Of a DNA stretch of 64,000 nucleotides, positions 20,135-61,449 are shown piece after piece. Made by a program: the position numbers and the translations under genes. Source of the DNA: an uncultured Bacteroidales bacterium (GTDB lineage: Bacteria > Bacteroidota > Bacteroidia > Bacteroidales > FEN-979); contig CAIQUS010000157.1 in the NCBI GenBank assembly GCA_903875045.1, forward strand, positions 1-64,000, written 5' to 3'. The notes beneath the pieces are model-generated. The model was not told the DNA's origin. It made no database searches and was given only the letters and a program-made list of their open reading frames with translations. Every line of letters begins with the position of its first letter. Positions within the stretch are counted from its first letter, which is position 1.

Positions 20135-20195
20135 GGCCCGGTCGTAAAGGACATCCTGGATCAACCCTGGTGACCGGGTCCCCGCTTTTTATTTT
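20135..20195 (+). terminator. Terminator-like hairpin between convergent genes
   Basis: GGCCCGGTC (20135-20143) pairs with GACCGGGTC (20172-20180, one G-U) and is followed by CCCGCTTTTTATTTT. It would end transcription of the large adhesin gene just before the convergent kinase gene. Confidence 0.5.
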
Positions 20196-39113: not shown

Positions 39114-40460
39114 TCAGATCAGGTTTTTTTGTCTCATCCGATAAAGGGTTGATTTTCCAACGGCTAATTTTTCAGCGACCAGCACCATATCATCCTTGTA
39201 TTTTTCAAGGTAGGATTTGATGATAACCCTGTCGTATTCTTCCAGTGTCATCTCTTTCGTGCTGAGAAAATCGGTGGGTTGAGAGGTCTGGGAGAAAATG
39301 ATATCCTCAGGTGTCAGCATTTTTCCGTTTGACATGACTACGGCAAGGTCAACGATTGCTTTCAGTTCCCTAATGTTCCCGGGATAGGGATAACGGAGCA
39401 GTTTTTCACTGGTTTCGCTTGAAAACACAATGGGCGGTAAATTATTTTCCTTGCAAAACATTTCTGCAAAATGTTTTGCAAGGATCAGAATATCGTTGGC
39501 CCGGTCGCGCAAAGGGGGCAGATGAATTGGCAATCCGAGCAGCCGGAAAAAGAGATCCTGCCGGAAATTCCCTTTTGCAACCTCTTCCTTGAGATCCTTG
39601 TGTGTGGCAACAATAAGCCTCAGGTCGAGTGCAATGGTCTCTTTTCCTCCGATTCTTACCAGTTCGCGCTCCTGAATGACCCTGAGTACCTTGGCTTGCA
39701 TGGCCATGTCCATATCACCAATCTCATCCAGGAAAAGGGTCCCCTCCGTGGCTTCTTCAAACTTGCCCGTTTTCCTGGTAAATGCCCCCGTAAAAGCCCC
39801 CTTTTCGTAACCAAAAAGTTCGCTTTCCAGCAGGTCATGTGGAATGGCAGCCATATTGACTGCGACAAACGGCTTTTTCCGGCGCACCGAATTATAATGA
39901 ATGGCTTTCGCTACAACTTCCTTGCCTGTACCGGTTTCCCCGGTAACTGAAACATTGATATTGGTCTTGACAGCCCGTTCAATCAGCGTATATAAATTTC
40001 TGATAACCTGACTGTTTCCGATAATTGTCTTTTCAAAATCATATTTTCTGATAACCTCTTCCTGTAATTTTTCAACCTGGTTTTTTAAAGACTGGTTTTC
40101 GCGGATCCGCAGGATCGTATTCCATAACCGTGATCGCGAATCCTGATCCTTTACAATATAGTCATAAGCGCCATCTTTCATCAAATCAAGTGCGGTAGAA
40201 ATATCTTTTTGTCCTGAAACAATGATAACCTGGGTTTCCGGACTGATCTGCCTGATCTTTTTTAATACCACAGCACCATTATAATCGGGCAGATTATAAT
40301 CGAGAGTGACCACATCAGGCTTCTCATGAAGATTCTCAATGAATTCCTTCCCGGTTAAAAAGTGCCGGATGCCATAATCGGGATTCAACGACAAATTGTG
40401 TTTCAGATATTCGCCATAGAACTTATCATCCTCAACAATAAAAATTGAAAAACTGCTCAT
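39114..40460 (-). CDS. NtrC-family sigma-54-dependent response regulator
   Basis: 448 aa. The receiver domain (about 1-120) has acidic pair Glu10-Asp11 and phospho-acceptor Asp54 (LDYNLPD). The AAA+ domain (about 145-370) has Walker A GETGTGK (174-180), the sigma-54 contact loop GAFTGA (221-226) and Walker B LFLDEIGD. A C-terminal Fis-like helix-turn-helix ends AEKLAVGKSTLYRMRQKNLI. It activates sigma-54 promoters by ATP-driven open-complex formation. It is followed by an Hpt gene, and then by the lipoprotein-LruC pair with a sigma-54-like promoter, a plausible target. Its own promoter has a standard -7 box. Confidence 0.93.
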   Translation of the reverse strand: MSSFSIFIVEDDKFYGEYLKHNLSLNPDYGIRHFLTGKEFIENLHEKPDVVTLDYNLPDYNGAVVLKKIRQISPETQVIIVSGQKDISTALDLMKDGAYDYIVKDQDSRSRLWNTILRIRENQSLKNQVEKLQEEVIRKYDFEKTIIGNSQVIRNLYTLIERAVKTNINVSVTGETGTGKEVVAKAIHYNSVRRKKPFVAVNMAAIPHDLLESELFGYEKGAFTGAFTRKTGKFEEATEGTLFLDEIGDMDMAMQAKVLRVIQERELVRIGGKETIALDLRLIVATHKDLKEEVAKGNFRQDLFFRLLGLPIHLPPLRDRANDILILAKHFAEMFCKENNLPPIVFSSETSEKLLRYPYPGNIRELKAIVDLAVVMSNGKMLTPEDIIFSQTSQPTDFLSTKEMTLEEYDRVIIKSYLEKYKDDMVLVAEKLAVGKSTLYRMRQKNLI

Positions 40461-40581: not shown

Positions 40582-42105
40582 TTACTTCCTGATGAATTTC
40601 GCCTGGTAAACCATTCCCGATGAATATATACGCAGAAGATACATGCCTGTCGAAAGACTGTAAACAGGAAGAGAAAAAGCTGCATCAGGTAAATCAAATT
40701 CCAGGATGACCTTTCCGTAAATATCTGAAATAGTGGCAGTCACCATCATCCCCGGATTTTCCGGAACCTTAACGAAAATCTTTTCTCCTGCAGGATTCGG
40801 GTACACAGTGATCTCTTTTTGCAGGAAGCCATGGCCGGATATCCCATCCGGATGAAGCTGGGTCAGGATGGCCGATTTGCGTGTGGCCAGAAAGGGTTTA
40901 AGGCCATAAGGTGTGTGATTATCAATGGCCTGGATAAATGAATTATTAAAGTCAGCGACTGTATAACCGTAGTCGAGGGTGCGGTAGGTGTCGGCGACGG
41001 CCGCCTGCTGAATCAATTGTTTCAGGGCATCGATCCTGGGAAAAATCGAATCAGGGTTGATCACGGTATTGGCAATGGTATCCAGGTATAACTTGTACCG
41101 GTTAAAAAAAACCGGAATGGCCAGCACTTTTTGAGCCAGCGGGAGCGGCATCGCAGTGTTTATCCAGTTACGGCAATCGCGTTTGGCCCAGTCAATACCA
41201 AACCAGTCAACACCAAAAGTGTTGTCGGGGTCGTAGGTGATAAAGTCGTAGGTTGAATCCAGTGGATTGTCATAAAGGTAATAGTTGTTTTTGTTGTAAC
41301 TGTAGTCGTCCCAGTTGCCGGTTGCAACGTCCAGTGCCAACGCTTTCAGAAAATGGTCAACATTCAGAATGGCAGAAACCTCCTGCTGAAAAGCTGCACC
41401 TGGTTGCTGGTTTAGTGTATAGATCAATTTAACCAGACGGGTATAGTCATCATCCGTTTTGTTTGTCTGAAGTTCGTAAACCCTTCCTCCGGTCACGGTT
41501 GAATTCTGGAGATCCTTGTACGTTTGCTGATAAGGACCATGGTATGCGAGATCGGCCGGATAGGAGCATTTAAACAGATTGCCTCCTGTTTTCTGGTAAA
41601 CCAGCGTAAGCCACTCCTTCTCCATCTCCTCCAGGTTGGTATACAACCCATAATAAGTTCCATTGATGTACATTTTTACGAAACTGGTCCTGCGCTCCAC
41701 CATGCCTGCTTTCTTCCAGATATCATAAAACAATTTTTCGCGGATCATGGAGGGGTCGTTGTGTTCCCCATTTAGGTTTATCTTTTTCACCCCCTGGTAT
41801 TTGCGCCCGGAAACATATTCATTGAAGCTGATCTTGAATGATTTTTTCTTAGAATAACGGGAGGTATTCCCCCTAAGCCGGAAACCTACGTTTTCAAGCG
41901 TGTCTCTGTTTTCATTGTCATCGAAAATAAACCTCGCCATATAATAATGGTCACTTAGCACCGAATCATAAATTACCGCCAGCGAATCCGGTGAAATTGT
42001 AATATAGATGGCAGATAAGCGGCTGTCGTCAAAAAGGGTATTCTGAGTATAGACTGACCCGGCAAGGATACTTATCAGCAGGCCTGTAAAAAAAAGTTTT
42101 TTCAT
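40582..42105 (-). CDS. CotH-family protein with T9SS sorting domain
   Basis: 507 aa with a signal peptide (MKKLFFTGLLISILAGSVYTQ). A CotH domain spans about 25-400: FRLRGNTSRYSKKKSFKISF is the typical substrate/ATP-lobe segment, GLYTNLEEMEKEWL and GNLFKC follow, and YDPDNTFGVDW is the metal-binding/catalytic part. CotH proteins are atypical secreted protein kinases (spore coat in Bacillus) found in many bacterial exoproteomes. The C-terminal sorting domain (ITVYPNPAGEKIFVK to KFIRK) sends it out by T9SS. The gene lies 10 bp after the aldo/keto reductase gene on the same strand; a functional link between them is not obvious. Confidence 0.88.
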   Translation of the reverse strand: MKKLFFTGLLISILAGSVYTQNTLFDDSRLSAIYITISPDSLAVIYDSVLSDHYYMARFIFDDNENRDTLENVGFRLRGNTSRYSKKKSFKISFNEYVSGRKYQGVKKINLNGEHNDPSMIREKLFYDIWKKAGMVERRTSFVKMYINGTYYGLYTNLEEMEKEWLTLVYQKTGGNLFKCSYPADLAYHGPYQQTYKDLQNSTVTGGRVYELQTNKTDDDYTRLVKLIYTLNQQPGAAFQQEVSAILNVDHFLKALALDVATGNWDDYSYNKNNYYLYDNPLDSTYDFITYDPDNTFGVDWFGIDWAKRDCRNWINTAMPLPLAQKVLAIPVFFNRYKLYLDTIANTVINPDSIFPRIDALKQLIQQAAVADTYRTLDYGYTVADFNNSFIQAIDNHTPYGLKPFLATRKSAILTQLHPDGISGHGFLQKEITVYPNPAGEKIFVKVPENPGMMVTATISDIYGKVILEFDLPDAAFSLPVYSLSTGMYLLRIYSSGMVYQAKFIRK

Positions 42106-43178: not shown

Positions 43179-43904
43179 TTAGAAGGAGTTTTTTTGGGTT
43201 TTGTTGTATACTTTACGGTTGAAGTTATAGAATTGTGCAGGCTTGTGCGACACATTCACTTGTTTTTCATCGATGGGTATGATAAATGGCATATTGGATA
43301 TCTTTTTACGGAAGTTCCGTTTGTCGAAATTCACTCCAAGGATTACTTCATAAAGTTGTTGGAGCTGTCTCAACGTAAACTTAGGAGGCAATAACTCAAA
43401 TGCAATGGGATTCAGATTCAGATCAGTGCGCAATACCTTCAGTGCCTGGTGTAAAATGGATAAATGGTCGAAAGCAAGTTCTTTAACCTCTGAGACGGCG
43501 TACCAGCGTGCATTTGATTGAAGCGTGAAATTAGAAGCCTTATCCTGATCTATGTTAATGAGCGAATAGTAGGCGACTGTCACAACAATTTCTTCGGGGT
43601 GGTTAATGCTTTTCAGCCATACCATATCCCGGGGCAGCCTCTTTAACCTTGTCGGGGAACCGATGGCCTGAAACTGCTTCAGATATATATTGTCGAGACC
43701 TGTGAGCTCACTGAGAACACGGGATGCTGCCGTATCCAGATCCTCGTTCTTTCTGACAAGGTCGCCAGGAAGTTTGAGATCATGGTATTCGCAGCCTTCA
43801 AATTCCATGTTACGTTCGATCAGCAGCACATCCAGTTTTCCAAATTCGAAACCAAACACCACGCAGTCAACAGAAACGTGGGGATTGAGACTTTCCGGGG
43901 CCAT
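43179..43904 (-). CDS. Nudix-type transcriptional regulator (NrtR/AraR-like)
   Basis: 241 aa from the ATG at 43904 (a TTG at 43934 is also in frame). A Nudix-like sensor domain (about 1-150) is followed by a winged-helix region (PPKFTLRQLQQLYEVILG, near 185) and a basic tail. This is the domain order of NrtR-like regulators, including the Bacteroidetes arabinose regulator AraR. The Nudix box is degenerate: PGDLVRKNE...ASRVLSELTGL lacks the second Gly and most of the catalytic REUxEE glutamates. It should therefore bind a ligand rather than hydrolyse it. An inverted-repeat site lies just upstream and recurs ahead of the glucan PUL. TACCTTTA (43953-43960, minus strand) is a possible -7 box. Confidence 0.82.
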   Translation of the reverse strand: MAPESLNPHVSVDCVVFGFEFGKLDVLLIERNMEFEGCEYHDLKLPGDLVRKNEDLDTAASRVLSELTGLDNIYLKQFQAIGSPTRLKRLPRDMVWLKSINHPEEIVVTVAYYSLINIDQDKASNFTLQSNARWYAVSEVKELAFDHLSILHQALKVLRTDLNLNPIAFELLPPKFTLRQLQQLYEVILGVNFDKRNFRKKISNMPFIIPIDEKQVNVSHKPAQFYNFNRKVYNKTQKNSF

Positions 43905-43977
43905 TGCCCCTGTTATTTTTTCACCGTTATGCAACGAATGTCAATTATAAGGTAAAGGTATATATTCTTTATAGCTT

Positions 43978-43994
43978 AGTGTCCCGATTACACT
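43978..43994. promoter_or_regulatory. Operator-like inverted repeat, copy A
   Basis: AGTGT-CCCGATT-ACACT, inside a roughly 42-bp block (43964-44004) that recurs at 44630-44670 with five mismatches and one gap. It lies between the Nudix-type regulator and the divergent acyltransferase remnant, where an autoregulatory operator is expected. The function is inferred. Confidence 0.5.
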
Positions 43995-44027
43995 GTGTCG
44001 TTTTGCACCGCAAGATAAGAAGAAAAA

Positions 44028-44531
44028 ATGATCCGCGTGAATATGGCCGACAATCAAGTCAAACTTAAGCGCCTCTCATCCGTTGATGCCCTCAGAGGCT
44101 TCGATATGTTCTGGATATCTGGCGGGGATGCGCTGTTTATAGCGTTATTCAGTGTGGGCAATATGCCATTTTTACATAACCTGGCTGTGCAGTTCGAACA
44201 TCCCGCGTGGGGGGGCTTCCGTTTTTATGATCTCATATTCCCTCTGTTTCTTTTCATCATGGGAATTGCGATGCCCTTATCCATAACACGGAGGATTGAA
44301 CGTGGCGACTCCCGAAATGGGCATTCCCTTTTATCGTAATCGGATTGAACCCCATTATTATTTGTTGTACAGGGTATTTTCGATTTTGGGATCATTGCAA
44401 ATATCTTCATGCATGGGTTTGTCGGTATTTTTGGCACTTACCGAATCGTGGTTTTTCAACTAAGTATCATCGTTGTGAAGTGGTTATTTTTATATTTTCT
44501 ATACCGTAAACAAATATTCCTTAAAGTGTAA
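44028..44531 (+). pseudogene. Acyltransferase (HGSNAT/DUF5009-like) pseudogene, internally deleted
   Basis: The first ~95 codons encode the N-terminus of a DUF5009/heparan-alpha-glucosaminide N-acetyltransferase-like membrane protein (SSVDALRGFDMFWI, FRFYDLIFPLFLFIMGIAMP). The frame then shifts into KWAFPFIVIGLNPI, stops, and shifts back to QGIFDFGIIANIFMHGF and the family-like C-terminus YFLYRKQIFLKV, ending at 44531. About 200 central residues are missing. The intact family has roughly 350-400 aa and ten or so membrane helices, so this is a dead gene made by an internal deletion plus frameshifts. Such enzymes often sit in glycan loci. Confidence 0.8.
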
Positions 44532-44591
44532 TGCATTCAAATATCAGAATATCAGTTAGTAACAATGATATTTTAATATTACATAAAAATA

Positions 44592-44619
44592 TTTCAAATT
44601 TTCTTGAAAGTATTTGAAA
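44592..44619. promoter_or_regulatory. Inverted repeat upstream of operator copy B
   Basis: TTTCAAAT pairs with ATTTGAAA across 12 nt, which themselves contain TTTC/GAAA. It is AT-rich with no T-tract. It may be a weak terminator for the pseudogene or a protein site. The rest of the 44532-44952 gap is AT-rich and has no gene. Confidence 0.3.
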
Positions 44620-44643
44620 ACGCATAATAATTCTTTCTAACTT

Positions 44644-44660
44644 AGTGTCCGAATTACACT
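44644..44660. promoter_or_regulatory. Operator-like inverted repeat, copy B
   Basis: AGTGT-CCGAATT-ACACT has the same arms and 7-bp spacing as copy A and similar flanks (ATTCTTT to the left, CGTTTT to the right). It lies 241 bp upstream of the -7 box of the PUL, rather far for simple repression. Confidence 0.5.
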
Positions 44661-44900: not shown

Positions 44901-44908
44901 TATATTTG
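44901..44908 (+). promoter_or_regulatory. -7 promoter box of the PUL
   Basis: TATATTTG matches TAnnTTTG exactly. The predicted leader to the ATG at 44953 is about 39 nt. Confidence 0.6.
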
Positions 44909-44952: not shown

Positions 44953-46725
44953 ATGAAAAACGTGTCAAAATTCAGTTGGGTGTTCTACCTTATGCTGATC
45001 ATCCCGCTTATTATGTCTTGCAAAAAGAAGACAACGGAACCCGATGTCATTGCAAGTTTTACCTACCTGGTTGATGCCGGTAACTTTAAAAAAGTTGCTT
45101 TTACAAACGCTTCATCTGGTTATTCTTCCCTTTCATGGAGTTTTGGTGATGCTACCTCATCAACTGAAGCCAACCCGGTGCATACCTATGCAGCCGCTGG
45201 TCAATTCACGGTTAAACTGACGGCTACTTCACCTGGTGGGGTAACAGATGCTTATTCTGTGACAATTACGATCAGTGATCCTGACGTTATGCTTACCATG
45301 CTTGTGGGGGATGTTTCGAAAACATGGAAACTACTTCGGAGCACATCAACAGGGCGGTATCCTTTGGAGGTTGGCCCTGCCGATTATTCACAAATCTGGT
45401 GGACATTTGGTGGCAATGAAGAACTTGGCAAACGTCCGTGTATGTTGAATGATGAGTGGACATTTACCCGTGCCGGCTTAAAAATGGACTTTGATGCAAA
45501 AGGCGATTATTGGGCAGAGGGTGGAGTTTTTGAACCCGGAAATAAATGTGCACTTACCTCTGATCCGATGGTTGGACCCAATGGGGAAAATCTCTCCGCA
45601 TGGGGCAATGGAAGTCATACCTTCGTTTTGTCACCTGGCACAAAAACAACCCTTTCAGTTGTGGGCCTTGGTGCATACCTTGGTTTATGCAAGGCAGCCA
45701 CCTCTGCAGAGGTCAAAGTTCCGCAGCAGTCTGTTACCTACGAAGTTATTAAACTTACTGACGGACCGGTAGATACACTTGTTGTTCAAACTGCCTATAT
45801 GACGGGTGATGTTCCACCCAAGCCGGCTTACTGGAGATTTGTACTCATGCATTATGACAATCCTGCAGATGAACCACCCATTCCGGGAAACAAACCAAAC
45901 GCTTCTTTTACAACTTCAATTTCCGGCCTGGCAGTTACCTTCACAAACACATCTACCGATGGAGATACCTATGGTTGGGATTTTGGTGATACACAAACCT
46001 CCACTGTTGCAAACCCGGTTCATACCTATGCTACCCAGGGAATTTACAATGTCACACTGACCGTCACAAACTCAAATGGCAGCAGTACTGCATCGGCCAT
46101 CGTTTTCCTCGGTGCCGACCTTGCCACCTTTACGGGAGCTCAATTGGTAGGTGCTCCATGGAAAGTACGTGCTGAAGAGAAATCAGTATTTGTAGGTCCC
46201 GGCATGGGAAAGAGTGACTGGTGGTCATTGCCCAAAAGCTTTATGATCAGTGGAGCCGGTGTTGATGACTGGACCTGCATGCCCGACGATCAATTTACCT
46301 TTGGTGCCACAGGTAATTTCTCATACAACACCATGGGCAGTGCCCGCAACGATGGATACCTTGGCGCACCCAACGGCTGTTTCAGTGATGCACAGATTGC
46401 CGGAAGCACACTCGGCTCAGGATTTGGCAGTTGTGCAACGCACACATACACCGTTGCAACCGGACCAAACCCAACCATTACTTTAACGAATGGTGCCGGG
46501 TTTGTCGCTTTTCTTGGATTCTACAAAGGATACAATGGTATAGCAAGCGGTGTTCAGGGTGGTGAAAACAATGGTACCAATCCTGCAAATTTTGGCTCCG
46601 CAACCAACACCTATCAGGTGATGGGTTATGCAAATACCGGCTCCAAAGAGTATTTGTTTGTTTCAGTTGACATTACCGGCGACCATACCGGTGGATCAGC
46701 ATGGTCAATGATTCTGGAGCGCTAA
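44953..46725 (+). CDS. PKD-domain surface glycan-binding lipoprotein
   Basis: 590 aa. The lipobox IPLIMSCKKK sets Cys23 as the lipid anchor. Two copies of a PKD-plus-beta-sandwich module follow: PKD 1 (about 32-108; SWSFGDATSS...PVHTYAAAGQFTVKLTAT) with a domain starting VGDVSKTWKLLRS, and PKD 2 (about 312-390; GWDFGDTQTS...VTLTVTN) with a domain starting VGAPWKVRAEE. The two downstream domains share W, CM-[LP]-ND/DD and GCF/KC patterns. No hydrolase motif is seen. PKD lipoproteins next to GH16 and SusCD genes occur in laminarin loci, where they bind glucan at the surface. A terminator follows, so this gene may be made in excess. Confidence 0.8.
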   Translation: MKNVSKFSWVFYLMLIIPLIMSCKKKTTEPDVIASFTYLVDAGNFKKVAFTNASSGYSSLSWSFGDATSSTEANPVHTYAAAGQFTVKLTATSPGGVTDAYSVTITISDPDVMLTMLVGDVSKTWKLLRSTSTGRYPLEVGPADYSQIWWTFGGNEELGKRPCMLNDEWTFTRAGLKMDFDAKGDYWAEGGVFEPGNKCALTSDPMVGPNGENLSAWGNGSHTFVLSPGTKTTLSVVGLGAYLGLCKAATSAEVKVPQQSVTYEVIKLTDGPVDTLVVQTAYMTGDVPPKPAYWRFVLMHYDNPADEPPIPGNKPNASFTTSISGLAVTFTNTSTDGDTYGWDFGDTQTSTVANPVHTYATQGIYNVTLTVTNSNGSSTASAIVFLGADLATFTGAQLVGAPWKVRAEEKSVFVGPGMGKSDWWSLPKSFMISGAGVDDWTCMPDDQFTFGATGNFSYNTMGSARNDGYLGAPNGCFSDAQIAGSTLGSGFGSCATHTYTVATGPNPTITLTNGAGFVAFLGFYKGYNGIASGVQGGENNGTNPANFGSATNTYQVMGYANTGSKEYLFVSVDITGDHTGGSAWSMILER

Positions 46726-46819: not shown

Positions 46820-47884
46820 ATGAAATCGCTGATAGTAATTGTGTTGATCTGTTTGGTGCAGAGTAGCTTTGCCCAGGTGGAAACGCTCGTTTGGAGCGAT
46901 GAATTCAATGGCACAGGTGTTCCGGACCCGGCAAACTGGGGATACGATTTAGGAAGTGGCGGCTGGGGAAACAACGAGGTTCAAACCTACACCAATTCAA
47001 GCCAGAACGCCAGACAGGAAAACGGCTTCCTCATCATCGAAGCGCTGAAACAGGGATATACCTGGACGTCAGCCAGGATCCTGACCAATAACAAACACGA
47101 ATTCAAGTACGGCAGGATCGTTTTTCGTGCCAAAATGCCGGTTGGCAGCGGAACCTGGCCCGCCTTGTGGTTGCTGGGAGAAAACTTTGCCTCAAAAGGC
47201 TGGCCCGGTTGCGGTGAAATTGATGTATTGGAACATGTTGGCAAAGACCCGGGATGGGTGCAATGTGCTACTCATACTCCTTCGAGCTACGGCGGTGGTT
47301 CGATCAATTTCAAGAAAAAATTCATCAGTACCGCCAATAGCGAATTTCATACCTACCAGCTGAACTGGACTTATGAAAAGCTTGAATTCAGCATCGACAG
47401 TGTGCTGATTTATACTTATCGTCCGGCAACAAGAAACACAGCCACCTGGCCATTCGACAAGCCTTTTTTCCTGATTATGAACCTCGCCATGGGCGGAAAT
47501 ATGGGAAGTGACCCGCAGTATGAAACCGGCGGGCAGAAAAATGGCATCGACCCTGCCCTGAATTCAGCACGATTGGAAGTGGATTATGTAAAGGTGTATC
47601 AATATCCTGCTGCAATTGATGACCCTTCAGGAGGTAAAAACAATCTCAGTTCGCAGCAACCATTTTTATACCCCAATCCGAGTGAAGGCGTTGTCCGTGT
47701 GACTGTTCCTGAGGGAACTTCAGGCACAGGCATCGTTTACAATTTGTATGGGAAAAAGGTCTTCGATTTTTTTATCAATGGCTCAACAGCAGAAATCAAC
47801 CTGACAACCCTTCCAGGGGGGCTGTATTTCATCTCCCTGCAAGCGGAAGGTAAAACATATAACAATAAACTGATTATTAAATAG
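46820..47884 (+). CDS. GH16 endo-beta-glucanase (laminarinase) with T9SS domain
   Basis: 354 aa with a signal peptide (MKSLIVIVLICLVQSSFAQ). The GH16 domain (about 20-265) has the catalytic signature GEIDVLEHVG: Glu133 nucleophile, Asp135 helper, Glu138 acid/base. The extra residue in E-x-D-x-x-E marks the laminarinase-type group acting on beta-1,3 or mixed beta-1,3/1,4 glucans. The C-terminal type A sorting domain (FLYPNPSEGVVRV to NKLIIK) indicates T9SS export. It starts a run of close genes with susC (17 bp) and susD (11 bp). A second GH16 gene at 58972 lacks the sorting domain and is a lipoprotein. Confidence 0.93.
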   Translation: MKSLIVIVLICLVQSSFAQVETLVWSDEFNGTGVPDPANWGYDLGSGGWGNNEVQTYTNSSQNARQENGFLIIEALKQGYTWTSARILTNNKHEFKYGRIVFRAKMPVGSGTWPALWLLGENFASKGWPGCGEIDVLEHVGKDPGWVQCATHTPSSYGGGSINFKKKFISTANSEFHTYQLNWTYEKLEFSIDSVLIYTYRPATRNTATWPFDKPFFLIMNLAMGGNMGSDPQYETGGQKNGIDPALNSARLEVDYVKVYQYPAAIDDPSGGKNNLSSQQPFLYPNPSEGVVRVTVPEGTSGTGIVYNLYGKKVFDFFINGSTAEINLTTLPGGLYFISLQAEGKTYNNKLIIK

Positions 47885-47901: not shown

Positions 47902-50829
47902 ATGATTCGATTATTTACGCTATTTCTTTTATCCGTTGTTTCGTTCTCCACTTTTGCCCAGGGCAGATTGATCACCGGCAAAGTAACGGATGCCGACGGT
48001 CTCGGGCTTCCCGGCGTGACCATTCAAGTTACCGGCACCTCCTCCGGAACGGTTACGGATGTGAATGGAAACTACCAGATATCCATTGATAAGGGAATAT
48101 TAAAATTCAGTTATGTGGGTTATATTGCCCAGGAATTCAAATTGGAAAATCAGACAGTCATTAATGTTGTATTGCAGGAGAGTGTAAGTACATTGAATGA
48201 GATCGTTGTAATCGGTTATGGTACCCAGATGAAAAAGGACATTACCACAGCGGTTTCCATGGTTGACCAAAAAGATATTGAAGACAGACCGATTGTCTCT
48301 GCCGCACAGGCTTTGCAGGGCAAGGCAGCCGGTGTTCAGGTTATGCAACCCTCTGGAAAACCCGGCTCTGACCTTTCTGTCCATGTTCGCGGAACCACTT
48401 CGCTTGTAGCAGGAAACGAACCCCTCTATGTGGTAGACGGAGTCCCCACCACTGATATCCGCGGGCTCAATCCATCAGACATCGCTTCAATGAGCGTGTT
48501 AAAAGATGCCTCTTCGGCAGCCATTTACGGAGCCAGGGCAGCCAATGGCGTGGTAACCATCACCACTTTCCGTGGAAAAGAAAATACACCAACTATTAAA
48601 TTCAACAGCTATTTTGGTATGTCATGGCTTAGGAAAACGATAGCAGTGCTAAATACAAAGCAATATCGGACACTCAAAGATGAAATGGATCCCGGTTCAC
48701 TGGATCCAACCTGGACCGGTTACACCGACTGGAGTGCTGAAACTTTCGGTACCGGCTACAACCAGTCGTATCAGTTATCTGCCTCCGGTGGAGGAGAAAA
48801 AACCCAGTATTTTGCCTCTATCGGTGTGTTAAGTGACGCAGGGATCGTGAAACCGGCCCAGTTCAACCGCTATTCATTCAGGCTGAACCTTGATAATGAA
48901 CTGAGATCGTGGTTGAAAATCGGAACCAACCTGAACCTGGTTTATTCGACAACCAAAGACACCCCCGACAATGCCAGTTCAGGCCGTGGAGGGGTGATCA
49001 TGAGCGCCCTCAACACCCCACCATTTTTGAGTATTTACAGTAAAACAAACCCGAATCAGTTTGATCCCAACCCTTTCCAGCCCTCCTGGGAAAATCCGGT
49101 GGCCTATATGCAGGGCCCTGATCAGAAAGCGGTTGATTTCAGGGTTTTCGGAAGCCTGAATGCAACAGCCACCATTATTAAAGGCCTTACTTTTAAAACC
49201 AACTTCGGGCTCGATTTTGCAAACCATCAGTGGGATTATTATCTCGATCCGTTCCGTACCAACTATGGCCGTGATCAACACGGGATCGGGCGTTCAGACA
49301 AATATAACAACCTCACCTGGCTGTGGGAAAACACCCTCAATTATGATAAAACCTGGGGCAAACATAAAGTTTCAGCATTGGCAGGTGCCAGTATCCAGAA
49401 AAATACCCGCAATGATTCATACATCTCCGGTCACGATTTTCCTGCAGATGTTTCGGTAACAACCATCAATGCCGCCAACACGGTTACCGCATCAACAGAT
49501 ATCCAGGAGTGGGCGCTGGCCTCTTTTTTTGGCCGGGCTACTTATGATTATAACAGCAAATATTATCTGACTGTCAGCATACGCCATGATGGCTCATCCA
49601 AACTGGCAAATCCATGGGGAACTATGCCCTCTTTCTCAGCAGGCTGGAGAATTTCCGGTGAACCTTTCTGGAAGAAAATTACCGTGATCAACGACCTTAA
49701 AATCCGTGGCGGATGGGGTGTAAACGGCAACCAGGAAGGCATACCCAATTATGCCCGTTTCGGACTTTTTTCTTACTATCCGCGTGCGGCTACCAATCCG
49801 CTTTCCGGTCCCATGGTTGTTCAGACAACTTATGGAAACCCCGATCTCCGGTGGGAAACAACCAATCAAACCAATGTCGGGATTGATCTGTCGATGTTTA
49901 ACTCAAGGATTACCCTGAATGTGGATGCCTACTATAAACTCACACATGATGTTATTTTGCCGGTTCAGCTTCCAGCATCCAGTCCTATCACTTATATCAT
50001 GACCAATTCCGGAAAAATTGAAAACAGGGGAATTGAGTTCAACCTGAATACAGTGAACATTGCAAAGAAACTGAGATGGGATACTGATTTCAATATGTCT
50101 TTCAACCGTAACAAAGTGTTGGAACTGCTTTTCCCCGGGCCTTATGCTTTTGGCCATATTTACAGCAACAACCAGGATGTATCTATTGTGAACGTTGGGT
50201 TGCCCCTCGGAACATTTTATGGCTATGTGGCAGAAGGTGTTGACCCGGCAACCGGGATGATGAAATATGCTGACCTGAATCACAATGGGTACCGCGATGG
50301 TGGCGACCGCACGGTGATCGGCCATGGTCAGCCGAAATACACCTTTGGCATCACCAATACGTTTAGCTACTGGCGGTTTGATTTGTCGGTGTTTTTCCAG
50401 GGGAGCTACGGAAATGATATTTTCAACGCAACCCGGATCGATCTTGAAGGGATGTTCGATTCAAAAAATCAGTCGGTTGTTGTGCTGAACCGCTGGACCC
50501 CGACAAACACACATACCGATATCCCGAAAGCAAGCAAAGATGTGATCGACAATGTGCTGAATTCTACACGCTTCATAGAGGACGGGTCGTATGTCAGGTT
50601 AAAATCGATCACGCTTTCCTACAAAATCATCGAAAACACCAAAAAGCTTAAAGGTGTTCCCAAATTATCCGTTTTTGTCACAGGTCAGAACCTGCTTACT
50701 TTTACAAAGTACACCGGATTCGATCCTGAAGTAAATGCCTACGGCAGCAGTGCTACGGAAGTGGGAATTGACTATGGTACTTATCCGCAGGCACTGACGT
50801 TGATTGCAGGGATAAATGTTGAATTTTAA
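47902..50829 (+). CDS. SusC/RagA TonB-dependent glycan transporter, pair 1
   Basis: 975 aa. The signal peptide ends at about residue 19 (FSTFAQ). A carboxypeptidase-regulatory-like beta-sandwich (about 22-98, GKVTDADGLGLPGVTIQV) precedes a TonB-box-like VVIGYGTQ, the plug domain (about 110-225, with YVVDGVP and VLKDASSAAIYGARAANGVV), and a 22-strand barrel to the C-terminal strand. It imports oligosaccharides across the outer membrane, with the SusD partner as lid. There is no STN signalling domain, so it does not itself drive an anti-sigma factor. Confidence 0.95.
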   Translation: MIRLFTLFLLSVVSFSTFAQGRLITGKVTDADGLGLPGVTIQVTGTSSGTVTDVNGNYQISIDKGILKFSYVGYIAQEFKLENQTVINVVLQESVSTLNEIVVIGYGTQMKKDITTAVSMVDQKDIEDRPIVSAAQALQGKAAGVQVMQPSGKPGSDLSVHVRGTTSLVAGNEPLYVVDGVPTTDIRGLNPSDIASMSVLKDASSAAIYGARAANGVVTITTFRGKENTPTIKFNSYFGMSWLRKTIAVLNTKQYRTLKDEMDPGSLDPTWTGYTDWSAETFGTGYNQSYQLSASGGGEKTQYFASIGVLSDAGIVKPAQFNRYSFRLNLDNELRSWLKIGTNLNLVYSTTKDTPDNASSGRGGVIMSALNTPPFLSIYSKTNPNQFDPNPFQPSWENPVAYMQGPDQKAVDFRVFGSLNATATIIKGLTFKTNFGLDFANHQWDYYLDPFRTNYGRDQHGIGRSDKYNNLTWLWENTLNYDKTWGKHKVSALAGASIQKNTRNDSYISGHDFPADVSVTTINAANTVTASTDIQEWALASFFGRATYDYNSKYYLTVSIRHDGSSKLANPWGTMPSFSAGWRISGEPFWKKITVINDLKIRGGWGVNGNQEGIPNYARFGLFSYYPRAATNPLSGPMVVQTTYGNPDLRWETTNQTNVGIDLSMFNSRITLNVDAYYKLTHDVILPVQLPASSPITYIMTNSGKIENRGIEFNLNTVNIAKKLRWDTDFNMSFNRNKVLELLFPGPYAFGHIYSNNQDVSIVNVGLPLGTFYGYVAEGVDPATGMMKYADLNHNGYRDGGDRTVIGHGQPKYTFGITNTFSYWRFDLSVFFQGSYGNDIFNATRIDLEGMFDSKNQSVVVLNRWTPTNTHTDIPKASKDVIDNVLNSTRFIEDGSYVRLKSITLSYKIIENTKKLKGVPKLSVFVTGQNLLTFTKYTGFDPEVNAYGSSATEVGIDYGTYPQALTLIAGINVEF

Positions 50830-50840
50830 TTTTTGAACCC

Positions 50841-52307
50841 ATGAGAAAAATATTTATTATTTCCGTTTTCACCCTTGCTGTTTTCACTTTTCAGTCATGT
50901 TCGAAATTTCTGGATATCAAACCTGTGTCGTATGGCATTGCGGTTGAGAACAGCAGTTCCGATTCTGTGTTGTATAAATCCGCAGAGCAGGTTGAGGCTG
51001 CCCTGGGCGGCGCTTATGGTGATTTTAAAAACGAATATTTTCAATTCGATTATTTTGTAAACGGCGATGCCCAGGCCGATGACGCTTATGCAGGGGCTGA
51101 CAATCCGGCCAACTTTCAGATTGATGATTTCAAACTTGACGCAACCAATTCAAATGTAAGCCGCGACTGGGGCTACCTTTATTCAGCCATTGGTAAAACC
51201 AATTCCATCATCAACAATGTAAACTCCTGTCCCGATCCCGCCCTTGCGCCGGAACGTAAAACCGAGATCATTGCGGAAGCCTCATTTATCAGGGCATTCA
51301 TGTATTTTCAACTGGTACAGCTTTGGGGTGATGTTCCATTGCAATTGAAGGAGGTGAAGACAATCAGTGCAAGCAATTTAGCGGAAATATATCCGCTGCT
51401 TTACCCGCCCAGAGCTGCAAAGTCAGCGATATACAAGCAAATCATTGCTGATCTTGAAACAGCCCTGGCCGGAGTACCTGTTAGTGCGATTAACAAAGGA
51501 TATGTCACCAGAGGAGCTGTAAATTCAATGCTTGGATATGTTTATGCCACACAGGAACCGCACGACTGGATCAAAGTTTCGCAATATTGTGATGCGGTGA
51601 TTGCCGGAGGCTACAGTCTTATGCCAAACTACAACGACTTGTGGAATAATCAAAATAAGAATTGTGCCGAATCGATTTTTGAGATCAATTATACCGGTGG
51701 AGCAACCGATGGTAACTGGGGAACAAAAATGTTCAGAGGGTTGGATTGGAAAAAATTTAATATTCCATCCAACGACATTGTAAAGGCCTTTGATGATGAA
51801 AAGGATACCGTAAGAAAGAATGCTTCCATTATTTTCCTTGACGTAACCGGAAAATGGTCAGATCAAAACTGGCCTCAGAAAAATTATCCTTTTGTAAATA
51901 AGTACCGGAATTTTAATGAAGGAAGCGATCAGGACTATATTTTTATCCGCCTGGCAGATATCCTCCTGCTGAAAGCAGAGGCGTTGAATGAGCAAAACGA
52001 TCTGGTCGGCGCTGCCGCCCTGGTTAACCAGGTGCGGCACAGGGCCTTGCTACAGGACACCCCTGCTTCTTCGCAGGAAGCAATGCGGCTTGCCATTGAG
52101 AAGGAGAGAAGGTTGGAGCTTGCGTATGAGGCCCACCGCTGGTTTGATCTGAAACGCACAGGCAGGGCTATTGAAGTGATGAACAATGCCATCGGGCCGG
52201 ATGGGCAGAAAATAGGATACAAGCTTACTGTAAACAAATCGGTTTGGCCGATTCCCCAGGCAGAGTTGGATAAGAATAAACAATTGGTGCAAAATCCGGG
52301 ATACTAA
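50841..52307 (+). CDS. SusD/RagB glycan-binding lipoprotein, pair 1
   Basis: 488 aa surface lipoprotein (lipobox FTFQSCSKF). It has the TPR-rich SusD fold: SKFLDIKPVS near the N-terminus, an AEASFIRAFMYFQLVQLWGD helix and the C-terminal EKERRLELAYEAHRWFDLKRTG block ending QLVQNPGY. It binds oligosaccharides and hinges over its SusC partner, encoded 11 bp upstream. A 339-bp REP-like region follows before the GH30 gene. Confidence 0.95.
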   Translation: MRKIFIISVFTLAVFTFQSCSKFLDIKPVSYGIAVENSSSDSVLYKSAEQVEAALGGAYGDFKNEYFQFDYFVNGDAQADDAYAGADNPANFQIDDFKLDATNSNVSRDWGYLYSAIGKTNSIINNVNSCPDPALAPERKTEIIAEASFIRAFMYFQLVQLWGDVPLQLKEVKTISASNLAEIYPLLYPPRAAKSAIYKQIIADLETALAGVPVSAINKGYVTRGAVNSMLGYVYATQEPHDWIKVSQYCDAVIAGGYSLMPNYNDLWNNQNKNCAESIFEINYTGGATDGNWGTKMFRGLDWKKFNIPSNDIVKAFDDEKDTVRKNASIIFLDVTGKWSDQNWPQKNYPFVNKYRNFNEGSDQDYIFIRLADILLLKAEALNEQNDLVGAAALVNQVRHRALLQDTPASSQEAMRLAIEKERRLELAYEAHRWFDLKRTGRAIEVMNNAIGPDGQKIGYKLTVNKSVWPIPQAELDKNKQLVQNPGY

Positions 52308-52646: not shown

Positions 52647-54128
52647 ATGCACCAAAAATTCTTTCTGACGAGTATCGGTTACTTCGGTAAAACGCTGACC
52701 CTTCTCACTTGTCTTCTTGTGATGAGCTGTAAAGCCAAAGAAGGCCCTGCTGCACCTGACCCGCCGCCTTCGGATGTGACAGGTACCGCTCAATTGTGGC
52801 TTACAAAAGGAGATAAATCGAAGCTGTTAAGCAGGGAGGCTGATCTTTCAATCAAAAAAGTCGCTTCCGGCTCTTTCCCGGTAGTTACCATTGATACTGC
52901 TACGCAGCTTCAATCTGTCGAAGGCTTTGGGGCAGCGCTAACCGGTTCCTCGGCATGGCTGTTACACAATAAAATGAGTGATGGTGCACGGCAAACCTTA
53001 CTCCGGCAGTTATTTGATACGGTTAACGGCGCCGGAATTTCCTATTTACGCCTGACCATTGGCGCCTCGGACTTCTCTTTGTCTGATTTTACCTATAACG
53101 ACTTACCCTCAGGTCAGACCGATTTTACCCTGCAGCATTTCTCACTGTCCAGGGATACCTCAGAGGTGATCCCCATCCTGAAAGAGATCCTTCATTTGTC
53201 GCCAGCCATCAAATTAATGGGTTCGCCGTGGAGTCCCCCTGCCTGGATGAAAACCAATAACAGCATGAAGGGTGGAAAATTGAGAACGGATTGTTATGAT
53301 GTATATGCCGCTTATTTTATTAAGTACATACAGGCTATGAAAAGCCATGGTATTACCATCTCATCCATCACACCGCAAAATGAGCCGCTGTATGCCACTG
53401 CAAATTATCCCTGCATGGGGATGCAGCCCGGTGAGCAGTTGACATTCATTAAAGACCATCTCGGTCCAAAATTCCAATCTGAGGGTATCAGTACAAAAAT
53501 AATTATTTATGACCACAATTGGGACAATACCAATTATGCGATCTCCATACTCAACGATCCTGATGCGAAAAGGTATATTGCCGGGTCCGCATTTCACGCT
53601 TATGCCGGCGATGTTTCGGCCATGAGTTCAGTTCATAGCGCCCACCCTGACAAGGCATTGTATTTTACCGAAATTTCCGGAGGCGCCTGGGCCACTGATT
53701 TTGGTGGCAACCTGATGTGGAACATGAAAAATATCTTCATCGGAACAATGCTGAACTGGTCGGGGACAGCCATGCTCTGGAACCTTGCGTTGGATCAAAA
53801 TTATGGTCCTCAGAACAATGGATGCAACAATTGCCGCGGGGTGGTTACGGTTAACCAGACCAATGGCCAGGTAACCTTGAACGAAGAGTATTATTCGATT
53901 GCTCATTTTTCAAAATTTGTAAGACCCGGAGCAGTCAGAATTGCATCTGGTTTTACATCGGGCCTGACCGGGGTCGGGGTTGTTGCATTTTTAAATCCGA
54001 ATGGGTCAAAGGCAATGATCGCCTGCAATTATGGATCTTCCTTAACCACCTTTACTGTGAAACAGGGGGGAAAGAATTTTTCGTGTTCTGTTCCGGCACA
54101 ATCGGTCGTTTCTGTTGTATGGAAATAG
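52647..54128 (+). CDS. GH30 beta-glucanase lipoprotein (first)
   Basis: 493 aa. The signal peptide with lipobox LLVMSCKAK (Cys28) makes it a probable surface lipoprotein. The GH30 TIM barrel with side beta domain spans about 70-490. The acid/base is Glu246 in ITPQNEPLYA and the nucleophile is Glu342 in YFTEISGG. SPWSPPAWMKTN is a family hallmark. In beta-glucan loci GH30 enzymes commonly act as endo-beta-1,6-glucanases, removing laminarin side links, or as beta-glucosidases. The lipoprotein anchor favours an endo enzyme at the surface (inference). It lies between the two SusCD pairs. Confidence 0.92.
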   Translation: MHQKFFLTSIGYFGKTLTLLTCLLVMSCKAKEGPAAPDPPPSDVTGTAQLWLTKGDKSKLLSREADLSIKKVASGSFPVVTIDTATQLQSVEGFGAALTGSSAWLLHNKMSDGARQTLLRQLFDTVNGAGISYLRLTIGASDFSLSDFTYNDLPSGQTDFTLQHFSLSRDTSEVIPILKEILHLSPAIKLMGSPWSPPAWMKTNNSMKGGKLRTDCYDVYAAYFIKYIQAMKSHGITISSITPQNEPLYATANYPCMGMQPGEQLTFIKDHLGPKFQSEGISTKIIIYDHNWDNTNYAISILNDPDAKRYIAGSAFHAYAGDVSAMSSVHSAHPDKALYFTEISGGAWATDFGGNLMWNMKNIFIGTMLNWSGTAMLWNLALDQNYGPQNNGCNNCRGVVTVNQTNGQVTLNEEYYSIAHFSKFVRPGAVRIASGFTSGLTGVGVVAFLNPNGSKAMIACNYGSSLTTFTVKQGGKNFSCSVPAQSVVSVVWK

Positions 54129-54213: not shown

Positions 54214-57200
54214 ATGAAAAAAAAGTACCCTGATTTTCCAAATTACAGCGCATTCAGAAGAAGACTGATGCTTGTGACAGGTATTCTTTGGCTTGGCGTT
54301 ACTACGCTTATTGCGCAGAACACCTTCCAATATACAGGCACGGTGTCCGATAAAACAGGTGAGACATTGCCAGGCGTCAGTGTCGTAGTTAAAGGCACCG
54401 TGAATGGTGCGGCAACCGACATACAAGGAGGTTACAAAATAACTTCAACCAGATCAACTGAAATACTTGTGTTTTCATTTGTCGGATATGTTACCCAGGA
54501 AATTGAAACACCTGCAGGCATCCCATTGAAGGTGGTACTGGCGAGCAGTGCGGTGGGATTATCCGAATTGGTGGTAATTGGTTACGGCACCCAAAAGAAA
54601 AGTGTAGTTACAGGGGCTATTTCCAAGGTTAAAAGCACGGATCTGGAATATATGCCGATTGTACGCATTGAGCAGGCATTGCAGGGAAGAACAACCGGTG
54701 TAAGTGTGGCTTCCAGTTCAGGCCAGCCGGGTGCGTCATCTACAGTGCGTGTGCGTGGTACAACAACCATCAACAACAGCAACCCGTTATATGTTGTTGA
54801 CGGGGTTCCCCTCGACAACGGAGGCATCGACTATTTGAATTCGGATGATATTGAGTCCATCGAGGTATTAAAAGATGCCGCATCTGCCGCAATTTATGGC
54901 ACCCGTGCTGCAAGTGGTGTCATCATCGTGACCACCAAAAAAGGCAAATCAGGCAGTTTAAAGGTTGGTTCGGGCAGCATGTCTGTAAATTTCAACGCAT
55001 ATTTCGGAACACAGGCCCCTGCAAAAAAACTTGAATTGCTCAATGCTACCGATTATGCAACATTAAGAAATGAAGCTTCTGTCAATGGCGGAGGCCCGGT
55101 CGTTTTTGATAATCCTTCTTCATTTGGCACCGGGACCGACTGGCAAAGCACCATTTTTAATAAATCGGCAAAAATTCAGAATTATGAATTAAGCATCAGC
55201 GGCGGAAATGATAAATCGAACTATTATACGTCCATGGGATATTTTACCCAGGAAGGGGTAATCGCCACCGACATTTCCAATTACAAAAGGCTTAACCTGC
55301 GTTTTAATTCGGCACATAAAGTAAAAGACTGGTTACGATTTGGGAATAATATTGGCTATACCCATATCAAGAGCCAGGGTTCGCTCAATACCAACAGTGA
55401 GTATGGCGGCCCGCTGTCATCGGCCATCAACCTGGATCCCATCACACAAACAGTGATCACAGACCCTGCCATTGCCAACGCTTCACCGTACATTGATCAT
55501 TTTGTGGTGAGAGACGCCAATGGTAATCCTTACGGAATTTCGCAATATGTTGGTCAGGAAATGACCAACCCGCTTGCTTACATTCAAACCCGGCTGGGCA
55601 ATTTTGGATGGTCTGATAATCTCATCGGCAACATGTACGCTGAGATTGAGCCCATCAAAGGGTTGAAAGTAAAATCGGATATTGGAGCTAAACTGGCATT
55701 TTATGGCGATGAAAGTTTTTCACCGGTTTCTTATCTGAATGCATCAACCTCCACTTCCAATAACTCCTATTACCGGTCGAACAACAGGGGTTTTATCTGG
55801 AATTGGGAGAATACAGCTTCTTATACACGCAGCTTCGGAAAACACAATGGTACAGTTCTGATCGGGACAAGTGCTTTTGTCGAAAATTTCATTGGGGTGA
55901 ATGCCACCTATAAAAACCTGCCGGTAAATACTTTTGCAGAGGCCTCAATGAACTATAATGTGGTCGCCGCCGACAGGGTAGGAGGTGGCTGGGAAACCCC
56001 TGACCATAAGGTCAGTTCAATTTTTGCCCGTGTGATATACAACTACAACGAAAAATATTTGTTCACCGGTATTGTCCGCCGTGATGGTTCATCCCGGTTT
56101 GGAAGTAACAACAAATATGGTATTTTTCCATCAGCTTCCATTGGTTGGGTAGCTTCACGGGAAAATTTCTGGCCGGAAAATAAGGTTGTAACATTTGTTA
56201 AACTCCGTGGTTCTTATGGAGTCAATGGCAATGATAACATCGGTGATTTTCAATACATGTCAACTGTGGGAGGAGGACGAAATTATACATTTGGGGCTGA
56301 TGGTTATGTGATCGGATACAGCCCAAACGCCCCCGCAAATCCTGATTTGAAATGGGAGCAAACAAGCCAGTTAAACCTGGGATTTGAGGCCACATTTTTC
56401 CAGGACCTTACCCTGGTTTTCGACTGGTTCAATAAAAACACAACAGGTATGCTGCAACCGGTTATTTTACCGGGTTATGTGGGTGCCGCAGGATTTCCGA
56501 CAGGGAACGTAGGCTCCATGACCAATAAGGGTGTTGAAATGGAATTAGGCTACCATAAGAAAATTGGTGAATTCGATCTGAAATTCAGTGGAAATGCTTC
56601 ATACCTGAAAAATGAAATCACGGAGCTTGGAACAGTAGATTTTATCTCAGGAGCAACATTCCAGTCAAGCAGTTACGAAATAAGCCGGCTGGCCGTCGGG
56701 CATCCCATTGGTGCTTTTTATGGGTTCCAGGTACTGGATATTTTTCAATCAATGTCCAAAGTTCAGGGTTACGTCGACAAAAACGGAAATATGATTCAAC
56801 CCAATGCAAAACCGGGTGATTTTCGTTATGCTGATTTGAATAGTGATGGCAAAATTGATGCAAATGACCGTACTTTTATCGGGGATCCCACACCAACATG
56901 GTCGTATGGTTTCACGATCAATGCGGCTTTTAAGGGATTTGATATTATGGTTTTCTGCCAGGGTGTTGCCGGCAATGACGTTTTCAACGGATTACGCCGT
57001 CTCGATATTCCTACAGCCAACTGGACTTCCGATGCATTAGGCCGTTGGACTGGCCCGGGAACGTCGACCGATTACCCCCGTCTTGCCGTTGGTGACCCGA
57101 ATGGAAACTTCAGCAAACCCTCCACTTTCTTTTTAACAAATGGCTCTTATTTCAGGTTCAAAACCATCCAATTGGGTTACACAATTCCCAAAAAGATTGT

Positions 57201-57372
57201 TGAGAAAATTGGTTTACAGCTGCTGCGGGTATATGTTACCACCAACAATCTGATAACCTTTACAAAGTATAAGGGTTATGATCCTGAAATTGGTGGAAGC
57301 AGTTATGGCATCGACCGTGGAGTTTATCCACAAGCCCGGTCGTTTATGATCGGATTAACGGTTACTATTTAA
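54214..57372 (+). CDS. SusC/RagA TonB-dependent glycan transporter, pair 2
   Basis: 1052 aa. The charged N-terminus and signal sequence end near TLIAQ. A carboxypeptidase-like domain (about 40-115, TVSDKTGETLPGVSVVVKG) precedes VVIGYGTQK, the plug (about 130-250; YVVDGVPLDNGG, VLKDAASAAIYGTRAASGV) and the barrel. It is clearly a paralog of the 47902 product but is not a recent copy (different lengths, low identity outside motifs). It therefore probably imports a different oligosaccharide. The susD gene follows after 21 bp. Confidence 0.95.
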   Translation: MKKKYPDFPNYSAFRRRLMLVTGILWLGVTTLIAQNTFQYTGTVSDKTGETLPGVSVVVKGTVNGAATDIQGGYKITSTRSTEILVFSFVGYVTQEIETPAGIPLKVVLASSAVGLSELVVIGYGTQKKSVVTGAISKVKSTDLEYMPIVRIEQALQGRTTGVSVASSSGQPGASSTVRVRGTTTINNSNPLYVVDGVPLDNGGIDYLNSDDIESIEVLKDAASAAIYGTRAASGVIIVTTKKGKSGSLKVGSGSMSVNFNAYFGTQAPAKKLELLNATDYATLRNEASVNGGGPVVFDNPSSFGTGTDWQSTIFNKSAKIQNYELSISGGNDKSNYYTSMGYFTQEGVIATDISNYKRLNLRFNSAHKVKDWLRFGNNIGYTHIKSQGSLNTNSEYGGPLSSAINLDPITQTVITDPAIANASPYIDHFVVRDANGNPYGISQYVGQEMTNPLAYIQTRLGNFGWSDNLIGNMYAEIEPIKGLKVKSDIGAKLAFYGDESFSPVSYLNASTSTSNNSYYRSNNRGFIWNWENTASYTRSFGKHNGTVLIGTSAFVENFIGVNATYKNLPVNTFAEASMNYNVVAADRVGGGWETPDHKVSSIFARVIYNYNEKYLFTGIVRRDGSSRFGSNNKYGIFPSASIGWVASRENFWPENKVVTFVKLRGSYGVNGNDNIGDFQYMSTVGGGRNYTFGADGYVIGYSPNAPANPDLKWEQTSQLNLGFEATFFQDLTLVFDWFNKNTTGMLQPVILPGYVGAAGFPTGNVGSMTNKGVEMELGYHKKIGEFDLKFSGNASYLKNEITELGTVDFISGATFQSSSYEISRLAVGHPIGAFYGFQVLDIFQSMSKVQGYVDKNGNMIQPNAKPGDFRYADLNSDGKIDANDRTFIGDPTPTWSYGFTINAAFKGFDIMVFCQGVAGNDVFNGLRRLDIPTANWTSDALGRWTGPGTSTDYPRLAVGDPNGNFSKPSTFFLTNGSYFRFKTIQLGYTIPKKIVEKIGLQLLRVYVTTNNLITFTKYKGYDPEIGGSSYGIDRGVYPQARSFMIGLTVTI

Positions 57373-57393
57373 TCACCTGTAAAATTGAAAACG

Positions 57394-58884: not shown

Positions 58885-58899
58885 ACTTTAAAAAACCTT

Positions 58900-58942
58900 A
58901 CTCATTCCCGACCCGCCTTATTCGGAGGGATCGGGAATGAGT
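58900..58942 (+). terminator. Hairpin after the second susD gene
   Basis: ACTCATTCCCGA (58900-58911) pairs perfectly with TCGGGAATGAGT (58931-58942). It is followed by TCATTTA, not a clean T-tract. It may end some transcripts or protect susCD mRNA from 3' decay, giving more SusCD than enzymes. Confidence 0.6.
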
Positions 58943-58971
58943 TCATTTACACCTGTAAACATTAAAATCCA

Positions 58972-59829: not shown

Positions 59830-59893
59830 TGAATTTATAATATGAGCATCACATTGTGATCGGAACATTGCAGCATAATGAAATCGAACAGGT

Positions 59894-61351: not shown

Positions 61352-61371
61352 CCCCATCCTTCAGGATGGGG
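61352..61371. terminator. 20-bp palindrome directly after the GH30 stop codon
   Basis: CCCCATCCTTCAGGATGGGG starts on the base after the TAA. There is no T-tract. A related but imperfect sequence lies near 43160-43180 (CCACCCTGAAGGATGGG), so this is probably another REP-like family. Confidence 0.5.
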
Positions 61372-61449
61372 ATTAGCAAGCCTCATCCAATGATCACTCA
61401 AGGAGAAACACGGGGTGAAGTGCATAACAAAACAAATAATTCATAAACG

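Follow-up and report, generated by a model that had tools for sequence, protein, structure and literature searches.

PUL induction in Bacteroidota is usually ascribed to membrane sensors of oligosaccharides, and the locus described here, on a 64,000-nucleotide stretch of DNA from an uncultured Bacteroidales bacterium (the window), raises the question of what controls a PUL that has a Nudix-type regulator just upstream (Table 1). A set of GH16, GH30, and GH3 enzymes points to a laminarin-type beta-1,3/1,6-glucan, and we infer this to be the substrate of the PUL. A first, sequence-only reading stated that the PUL lacks the usual regulators. A Pfam scan of 19 window ORFs, in addition to those of the regulator and nagX, showed no SusR, HTCS, or ECF gene, so the statement holds for these ORFs but not for the window edge, where a SusR-like protein begins. 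The window also encodes a PAS histidine kinase 23 kb away (20194-21894) and a sigma-54-type response regulator (39114-40460) that is absent from the 14 other loci used for comparison. Our preferred reading, to which we give a probability of roughly 70%, is that the Nudix-type protein, a member of the NrtR/AraR family, senses sugar and represses the PUL until a glucose-type ligand releases it.

Table 1. Coordinates of the regulator, putative operator and promoter elements, and PUL genes.
Feature	Position	Strand	Basis and remarks
NrtR/AraR-type Nudix regulator	43179-43904	-	241 aa from ATG 43904; Pfam, PDB sequence match, AF2
Operator site 1 (putative), AGTGTCCCGATTACACT	43978-43994	.	Exact palindrome AGTGT-N7-ACACT
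nagX/DUF5009-type acyltransferase remnant	44046-44528	+	Gene start and end kept, frame broken; tblastn with relatives
Putative promoter P1	44614-44645	+	TTG 44614-44616, 21-nt spacer, TAACTTAG 44638-44645; -7 overlaps operator
Operator site 2 (putative), AGTGTCCGAATTACACT	44644-44660	.	Exact; flanks match conserved PUL operator
Putative promoter P2, -7 element TATATTTG	44901-44908	+	44 nt before the first ATG of the PUL
PUL gene 1, PKD-domain lipoprotein	44953-46725	+	Pfam PKD; "lipoprotein" from signal sequence
GH16 with secretion tail	46820-47884	+	Pfam
SusC-like	47902-50829	+	Read from sequence; resembles second SusC-like ORF
SusD-like	50841-52307	+	Pfam
GH30	52647-54128	+	Pfam
PUL remainder: second SusC-like/SusD pair, GH16, GH30-like, GH3	54214-63969	+	Second SusD, GH16, and GH3 by Pfam; second SusC and GH30-like resemble the first copies
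SusR-like Reg_prop/Y_Y_Y regulator	63989-66847 (contig C157)		952 residues; starts 20 bp after last GH3

The proposal that an NrtR/AraR-like Nudix protein lies just upstream of the PUL was borne out. The protein consists of an N-terminal Nudix-like sensor domain and a C-terminal winged helix, with Pfam matches to NrtR_WHD (9.8e-27), AraR_C (1e-13), and NUDIX (3.3e-6), and its closest solved relative by sequence is BtAraR (5bs6; phmmer E 7.8e-45). BtAraR is also the top PDB match, at 38% identity, of an AlphaFold (AF2) model built from 70 sequences (pLDDT 89.7), which superseded an earlier, weak model from 10 close sequences (pLDDT 65.5). The Nudix-like N-domain, the NrtR winged-helix C-domain, and a degenerate Nudix box, placed from residue 48 by reading the sequence, are those of the NrtR superfamily. 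Set against the motif GX5EX7REUXEEXGU, as quoted in an excerpt of PMC4666351, the box has lost the Gly (Asp48), the second Glu (Val63), and the last Glu (Leu67), and retains Glu54, Arg62, Glu66, and Gly69. The box is therefore degenerate, but the statement that it had lost most of its catalytic residues was too strong, as two of four Glu remain.

The two AGTGT-N7-ACACT sequences that had been pointed out are both exact, lie 666 bp apart, and have flanks in common. Within the window, a scan allowing one mismatch yielded two matches in 64 kb, which is not unusual per se because 30 of 100 shuffles also reach two; a chance origin could not be excluded by window shuffles alone but was excluded by the genome and orthologue tests. 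Genome-wide (5.96 Mb, 253 contigs), the motif search identified only four exact sites, and the other two (C94:48874 and C176:28154) are without the CTT flank. The longer pattern CTTAGTGTN5TTACACTNTG has zero-mismatch matches at the two window sites only, plus two unrelated matches at three mismatches; since a backwards control gave 14 matches against 4 real ones with up to three mismatches, only the two zero-mismatch matches are meaningful. The repeated block of about 42 bp also exists, although at 33 of 42 identical positions (79%), or 27 of 31 in the best ungapped block (43964-43994), rather than at the approximately 85% first given. This block is not a dispersed repeat, as queries of 88 and 101 bases around the two sites returned, besides themselves, short matches of low significance (best E 1.6 and 0.02, respectively).

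A relative of the regulator is present in 23 of 61 genomes, own genome included, with G022 contributing a 39-residue match only. The gene neighbourhoods of nine close orthologues (75-84% identity; six from the same genus and three from a second genus of the family) were examined, and a tenth PUL-type relative, L079, was drawn from the 80 kept of 307 confirmed relatives. Conservation of the site next to orthologous regulators, which the idea entails, was found throughout: in each of the ten relatives, regulator and divergent PUL flank a site, as they do in the window (11 of 11 in total), and all 11 loci have it in the form CTTAGTGT. Shuffling gave an expectation of 0.03 loci for a shorter strict form of the site, observed at all 11 PUL-type regulators, in a 600-bp upstream frame that for the window takes in site 1 only. 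The PUL of each relative begins with the same PKD protein, followed by GH16 in eight and by SusC in L078 (same genome as L054) and L079.

Among 19 congeneric genomes, the regulator, the site (at most one mismatch), and the PKD protein occur in the same seven (G000, G008, G012, G013, G014, G015, and G017), and the other 12 hold none of them. A seven-with-seven match would arise by chance once in 50,388 if the occurrences were independent, a figure made less extreme by shared ancestry. The backwards control, also at one mismatch, gave 7 matches in 4 of the 19 genomes, so the site count alone is weak and the position of the real matches is telling: all nine fall at the regulator-PUL locus. A second PKD match in G015 (C225) was discarded, being inside a larger gene with no GTGT-N7-ACAC found in the 7.5 kb examined. 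Family, operator, conservation, and linkage were all established computationally, and comparative genomics gives good support to the predicted wiring, in which a Nudix regulator acts on a beta-glucan PUL via AGTGT-N7-ACACT.

The wider family was examined using a tree of 101 rows, from which residue counts were also taken, consisting of the 80 relatives (69 of which, with the window, make up set A3), the window, 18 further loci, and two PDB stretches. Rows L048-L056, which are the same genomes as L072-L078, L080, and L091, were left out, as were L040 and L046, which match only in part, and a further match to which no locus was assigned. The tree was made by a quick method, with 38 of 98 inner branches open. 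Context classes were assigned by BLAST against 19 marker proteins from these loci, so that the 33 rows classed as "none" are those lacking these particular markers. The marker labels PfkA, GAPDH, sugar-kinase, beta-phosphoglucomutase, GH65, GH31, GH13, GH144, GH3 (L099), XylA, XylB, XylE, and MFS were read from sequence, without Pfam. Gene contexts cluster in the tree, with the PUL rows in one branch and the XylA/XylB rows in another (branch values 97* and 94, respectively), and 21 of 26 glycolysis/maltose rows in one 25-row set (99*). In loci such as L118 (from the cultured flavobacterium Phaeocystidibacter luteus), L116, and L128, the Nudix regulator diverges from PfkA, GAPDH, sugar kinase, beta-phosphoglucomutase, GH65, or GH13 genes. 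GTGT-N7-ACAC occurs upstream of all 26 glycolysis/maltose-type relatives (strict form in 19), most of which are Flavobacteriales. The sister clade of the PUL rows (L081-L090), 67-73% identical to the window regulator, is without any marker gene nearby and has the strict site approximately 300 bp upstream in four of ten members (L083, L086, L087, and L089).

The operator type itself is already known for the family. BtAraR (BT0354 of Bacteroides thetaiotaomicron; PDB 5bs6, 5dd4, 5ddg, and 5deq) has the same Nudix and winged-helix architecture as the window regulator, and its operator oligonucleotide from BT0365, AGTGTAAAAAAGACACT, has half-sites and N7 spacing identical to those of the window sites, according to an excerpt of PMC4666351; the regulator locus thus carries a predicted AraR-type AGTGT-N7-ACACT operator. 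BtAraR is further predicted to control arabinose-related SusC/SusD PULs (PMC4666351, section 11). The suggestion that a Nudix-family regulator of a beta-glucan PUL is an unusual wiring therefore needs qualification: the wiring itself is supported and the regulator represents a new branch, but NrtR-family control of PULs is already known from AraR. Among the matches listed in the open literature, with subscription journals, bioRxiv, and RegPrecise outside this scope, none described control of a beta-glucan PUL, or of glycolysis operons of this kind, by a Nudix/NrtR regulator. AraR adjoins an arabinose catabolic operon, whereas the window regulator adjoins the beta-glucan PUL and also, at 40582-42105, an aldo/keto reductase and a CotH-domain secreted protein, both conserved in several orthologue loci. 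SusR-like and hybrid two-component regulators have a PUL-control role in common with the window regulator, but their predicted sites are described as direct repeats in the part of PMC3878776 concerned, while the window site is a palindrome and the sensor, by family, soluble.

Site 1 was first described as lying in the regulator's own divergent promoter region. It is present there, 73 nt upstream of the regulator ATG, but autoregulation is not general, since a second, regulator-proximal site occurs in only two of 11 loci (the window and L052/L076), and the site also fronts the nagX remnant, whose ORF begins 33 nt downstream. This remnant sits between the two operator copies; tblastn aligned residues ~7-97 to the stretch starting at 44046 and residues 302-373 to the stretch ending at 44528, some 200 codons in between being missing, and no further nagX copy was found in the genome with an N-terminal probe, the last letters of which are approximate. 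An intact or split nagX lies on the regulator's other side in five of ten relatives (L072, L077, L078, L079, and L091), and in a more distant group (34-37% identity) nagX-like genes diverge from the regulator in L092, L097, L098, L100, and L101. The gene nagX hence recurs next to the regulator, and the simplest reading is that site 1 is an operator copy set before nagX, which has since degraded. Site 1 may also touch the regulator's own promoter.

By analogy with BtAraR, dimer binding, repression, and release by sugar would proceed as follows. The ligand-free regulator dimer would bind AGTGT-N7-ACACT before the PUL and cover the -7 element of P1, with site 1 as a second operator copy now in front of the decayed nagX. 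Glucan breakdown would raise the intracellular level of a glucose-type ligand, most likely free glucose, which the Nudix-derived domain would take up, causing the winged helices to rotate off the DNA. With the regulator off the DNA, the PUL would be expressed.

The promoter geometry bears on the sign of this regulation. The Bacteroides promoter consensus is given as TTTG near -33 and TAnnTTTG at -7 in an excerpt of PMC7366714. In all 11 loci, TA[AC]CTTAG overlaps the operator's left end, so that the P1 -7 element matches TAnnTTnG in 11 of 11 and the full TAnnTTTG in none; a TTG stands 21 nt before this -7-like element in nine of 11, where the 60-nt upstream stretches hold a total of 16 TTG in 638 positions. 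The overlap of the operator with a -7-like element suits a repressor. In the glycolysis/maltose-type relatives, TAnnTTTG starts from the operator's last base exactly in 10 of 26, nearly so in seven, and was not seen in nine. As the side carrying the extra conserved bases differs between the two clades, and is in each the place where a -7 element would be, the comparison suggests that AGTGT-N7-ACACT is the operator core and that it blocks polymerase. On the other hand, TATATTTG of P2, found in 11 of 11 loci at 39-44 nt before the first PUL ATG and 42-517 nt after the operator, matches the -7 consensus better than P1 and is not covered by the operator, so the PUL might stay active with only P1 blocked.

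These observations leave room for an activator, the best placed of the alternatives but still an unlikely one, in which the same regulator, bound to its ligand at the same operator, would recruit polymerase to P2. The exact -7 consensus of P2 in every locus fits such a role, and the operator ends just 42-66 nt before P2 in L052, L053, L054, and L055, but the range of operator-to-P2 distances would be odd for a classical activator, and both the PUL clade and some members of the glycolysis/maltose clade have a -7-like element overlapping the operator. Moreover, BtAraR gives up its affinity for DNA on sugar binding, as stated in an excerpt of PMC4666351.

The nature of the ligand may be approached through the pocket of the dead Nudix domain. 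Compared with BtAraR, the window regulator has Asp for Gly48, Leu for Phe49, Met for Phe36, and a longer loop before the Val92 strand. Across the 11 PUL rows, Gly48 is Asp and Phe49 is Leu in all, and Phe36 is replaced by Met (nine), Ile (one), or Thr (one), a position that varies in Prevotella AraR too (excerpt of PMC4666351). All 11 PUL-type regulators retain the hydrogen-bonding contacts Arg34 and His131 of BtAraR. An Arg also aligns with Arg86 in 11 of 11, but the loop there is longer, and the equivalent is unsure: both MAFFT alignments place it at residue 86, phmmer at another Arg, residue 92. Position 48 is Asp in all 42 PUL (11), glycolysis/maltose (26), other-GH (three), and MFS (two) rows, or 47 of 47 including the five nagX-linked rows. 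Of the 19 xylose-linked rows, 17 have Ser at this position; BtAraR and SoNrtR have Gly, and the class "none" has Asp (19), Gly (12), Asn (one), or Tyr (one). As two xylose-linked rows deviate (L058 with Asp and L061 with Arg), position 48 was rejected as a perfect sugar marker. Because the Asp groups with recognised sugar genes have glucose as their common thread, the ligand is likely glucose or a derivative, judging from gene context and pocket; nothing seen points toward a nucleotide-sugar, which had also been suggested. Against glucose stand the change of Arg34 to Gln in 20 of 26 glycolysis/maltose-type rows and the sister clade without markers.

The retention of Arg34 and His131 would also fit a regulator that still senses a pentose, either xylose or arabinose, in which case pentoses freed along with other glycans would induce the PUL; in the tree, a 56-row set (98*) unites the PUL clade with the 19 XylA/XylB-linked rows. 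XylR-type NrtR regulators (BT0791, itself left out of the tree, and the XylA/XylB-linked homologues) are indeed nearer to the PUL clade than AraR is. However, the PUL-type regulators are not of this type: they lie outside the XylA/XylB branch, have no XylA/XylB marker near any of the 11 in a search whose pentose markers were those for xylose, and differ at position 48 from both the mostly Ser48 xylose-linked proteins and AraR with its Gly. In addition, GTGT-N7-ACAC was found within 600 bp upstream in 0 of 19 xylose-linked loci, and the PUL enzymes are GH16, GH30, and GH3. Pentose sensing therefore ranks second among the alternatives and is likewise unlikely.

Less probable again is a reading in which P1 with its operator gives rise to a short regulatory RNA or leader, while the PUL itself is transcribed from P2 and answers to another regulator, such as the SusR-like protein. 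The two putative promoters with their variable gap would allow for this, as would the position of the SusR-like gene directly behind GH3. Downstream of that gene are SusC/SusD, two Glycoamylase-family (PF10091) enzymes, and GH3, which form a second PUL. Although the SusR-like protein could co-regulate the beta-glucan PUL, we take it to belong to the next PUL. Of five genomes with a readable PUL end, three (G025, G035, and G029) have no homologue of it in the roughly 8-15 kb that follow GH3, and in G017 the homologue follows the GH30 gene and precedes another SusC/SusD pair; loci L170, L171, and L176, where the PUL end is outside the range, were left out of this comparison. Nor was any conserved stretch between the operator and P2 noticed by eye.

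That the protein is an ordinary NAD-type NrtR adjoining the PUL by chance is highly improbable: its sole NCBIfam match is the NrtR model, but at 115 bits, far under the 400-bit cut-off, which indicates that it is not a canonical NAD-type NrtR; the operator and PUL linkage are conserved; and AraR is closest in both solved sequence and structure, whereas NrtR of Shewanella oneidensis (3gz5/3gz6), an ADP-ribose-responsive regulator of NAD genes according to an excerpt of PMC4666351, has the fold in common at 27-29% identity in the fold match.

Returning to the glucose-responsive repressor, the regulator may be part of an undescribed glucose-type Nudix branch across Bacteroidota that uses one AGTGT-N7-ACACT operator for beta-glucan PULs in freshwater Bacteroidales and for upper-glycolysis/maltose genes mainly in Flavobacteriales (PfkA, GAPDH, sugar kinase, beta-phosphoglucomutase, GH65, and GH13, as labeled from sequence). 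The first residue of the dead Nudix box would help to set the sugar in this branch, with Gly, Ser, and Asp corresponding to arabinose, xylose, and glucose, respectively. We propose this broader picture tentatively, at somewhat less than even odds. Beta-glucan is a major carbon store of algae, and with the PUL under such a regulator, the end product of its breakdown would be sensed by a soluble protein in the cytoplasm rather than oligosaccharides by a membrane sensor. The same operator in front of the Flavobacteriales glycolysis genes would then represent a widely shared sugar-responsive regulon, and the Gly/Ser/Asp position would allow direct study of how the pocket of a dead enzyme shifts from one sugar to another.
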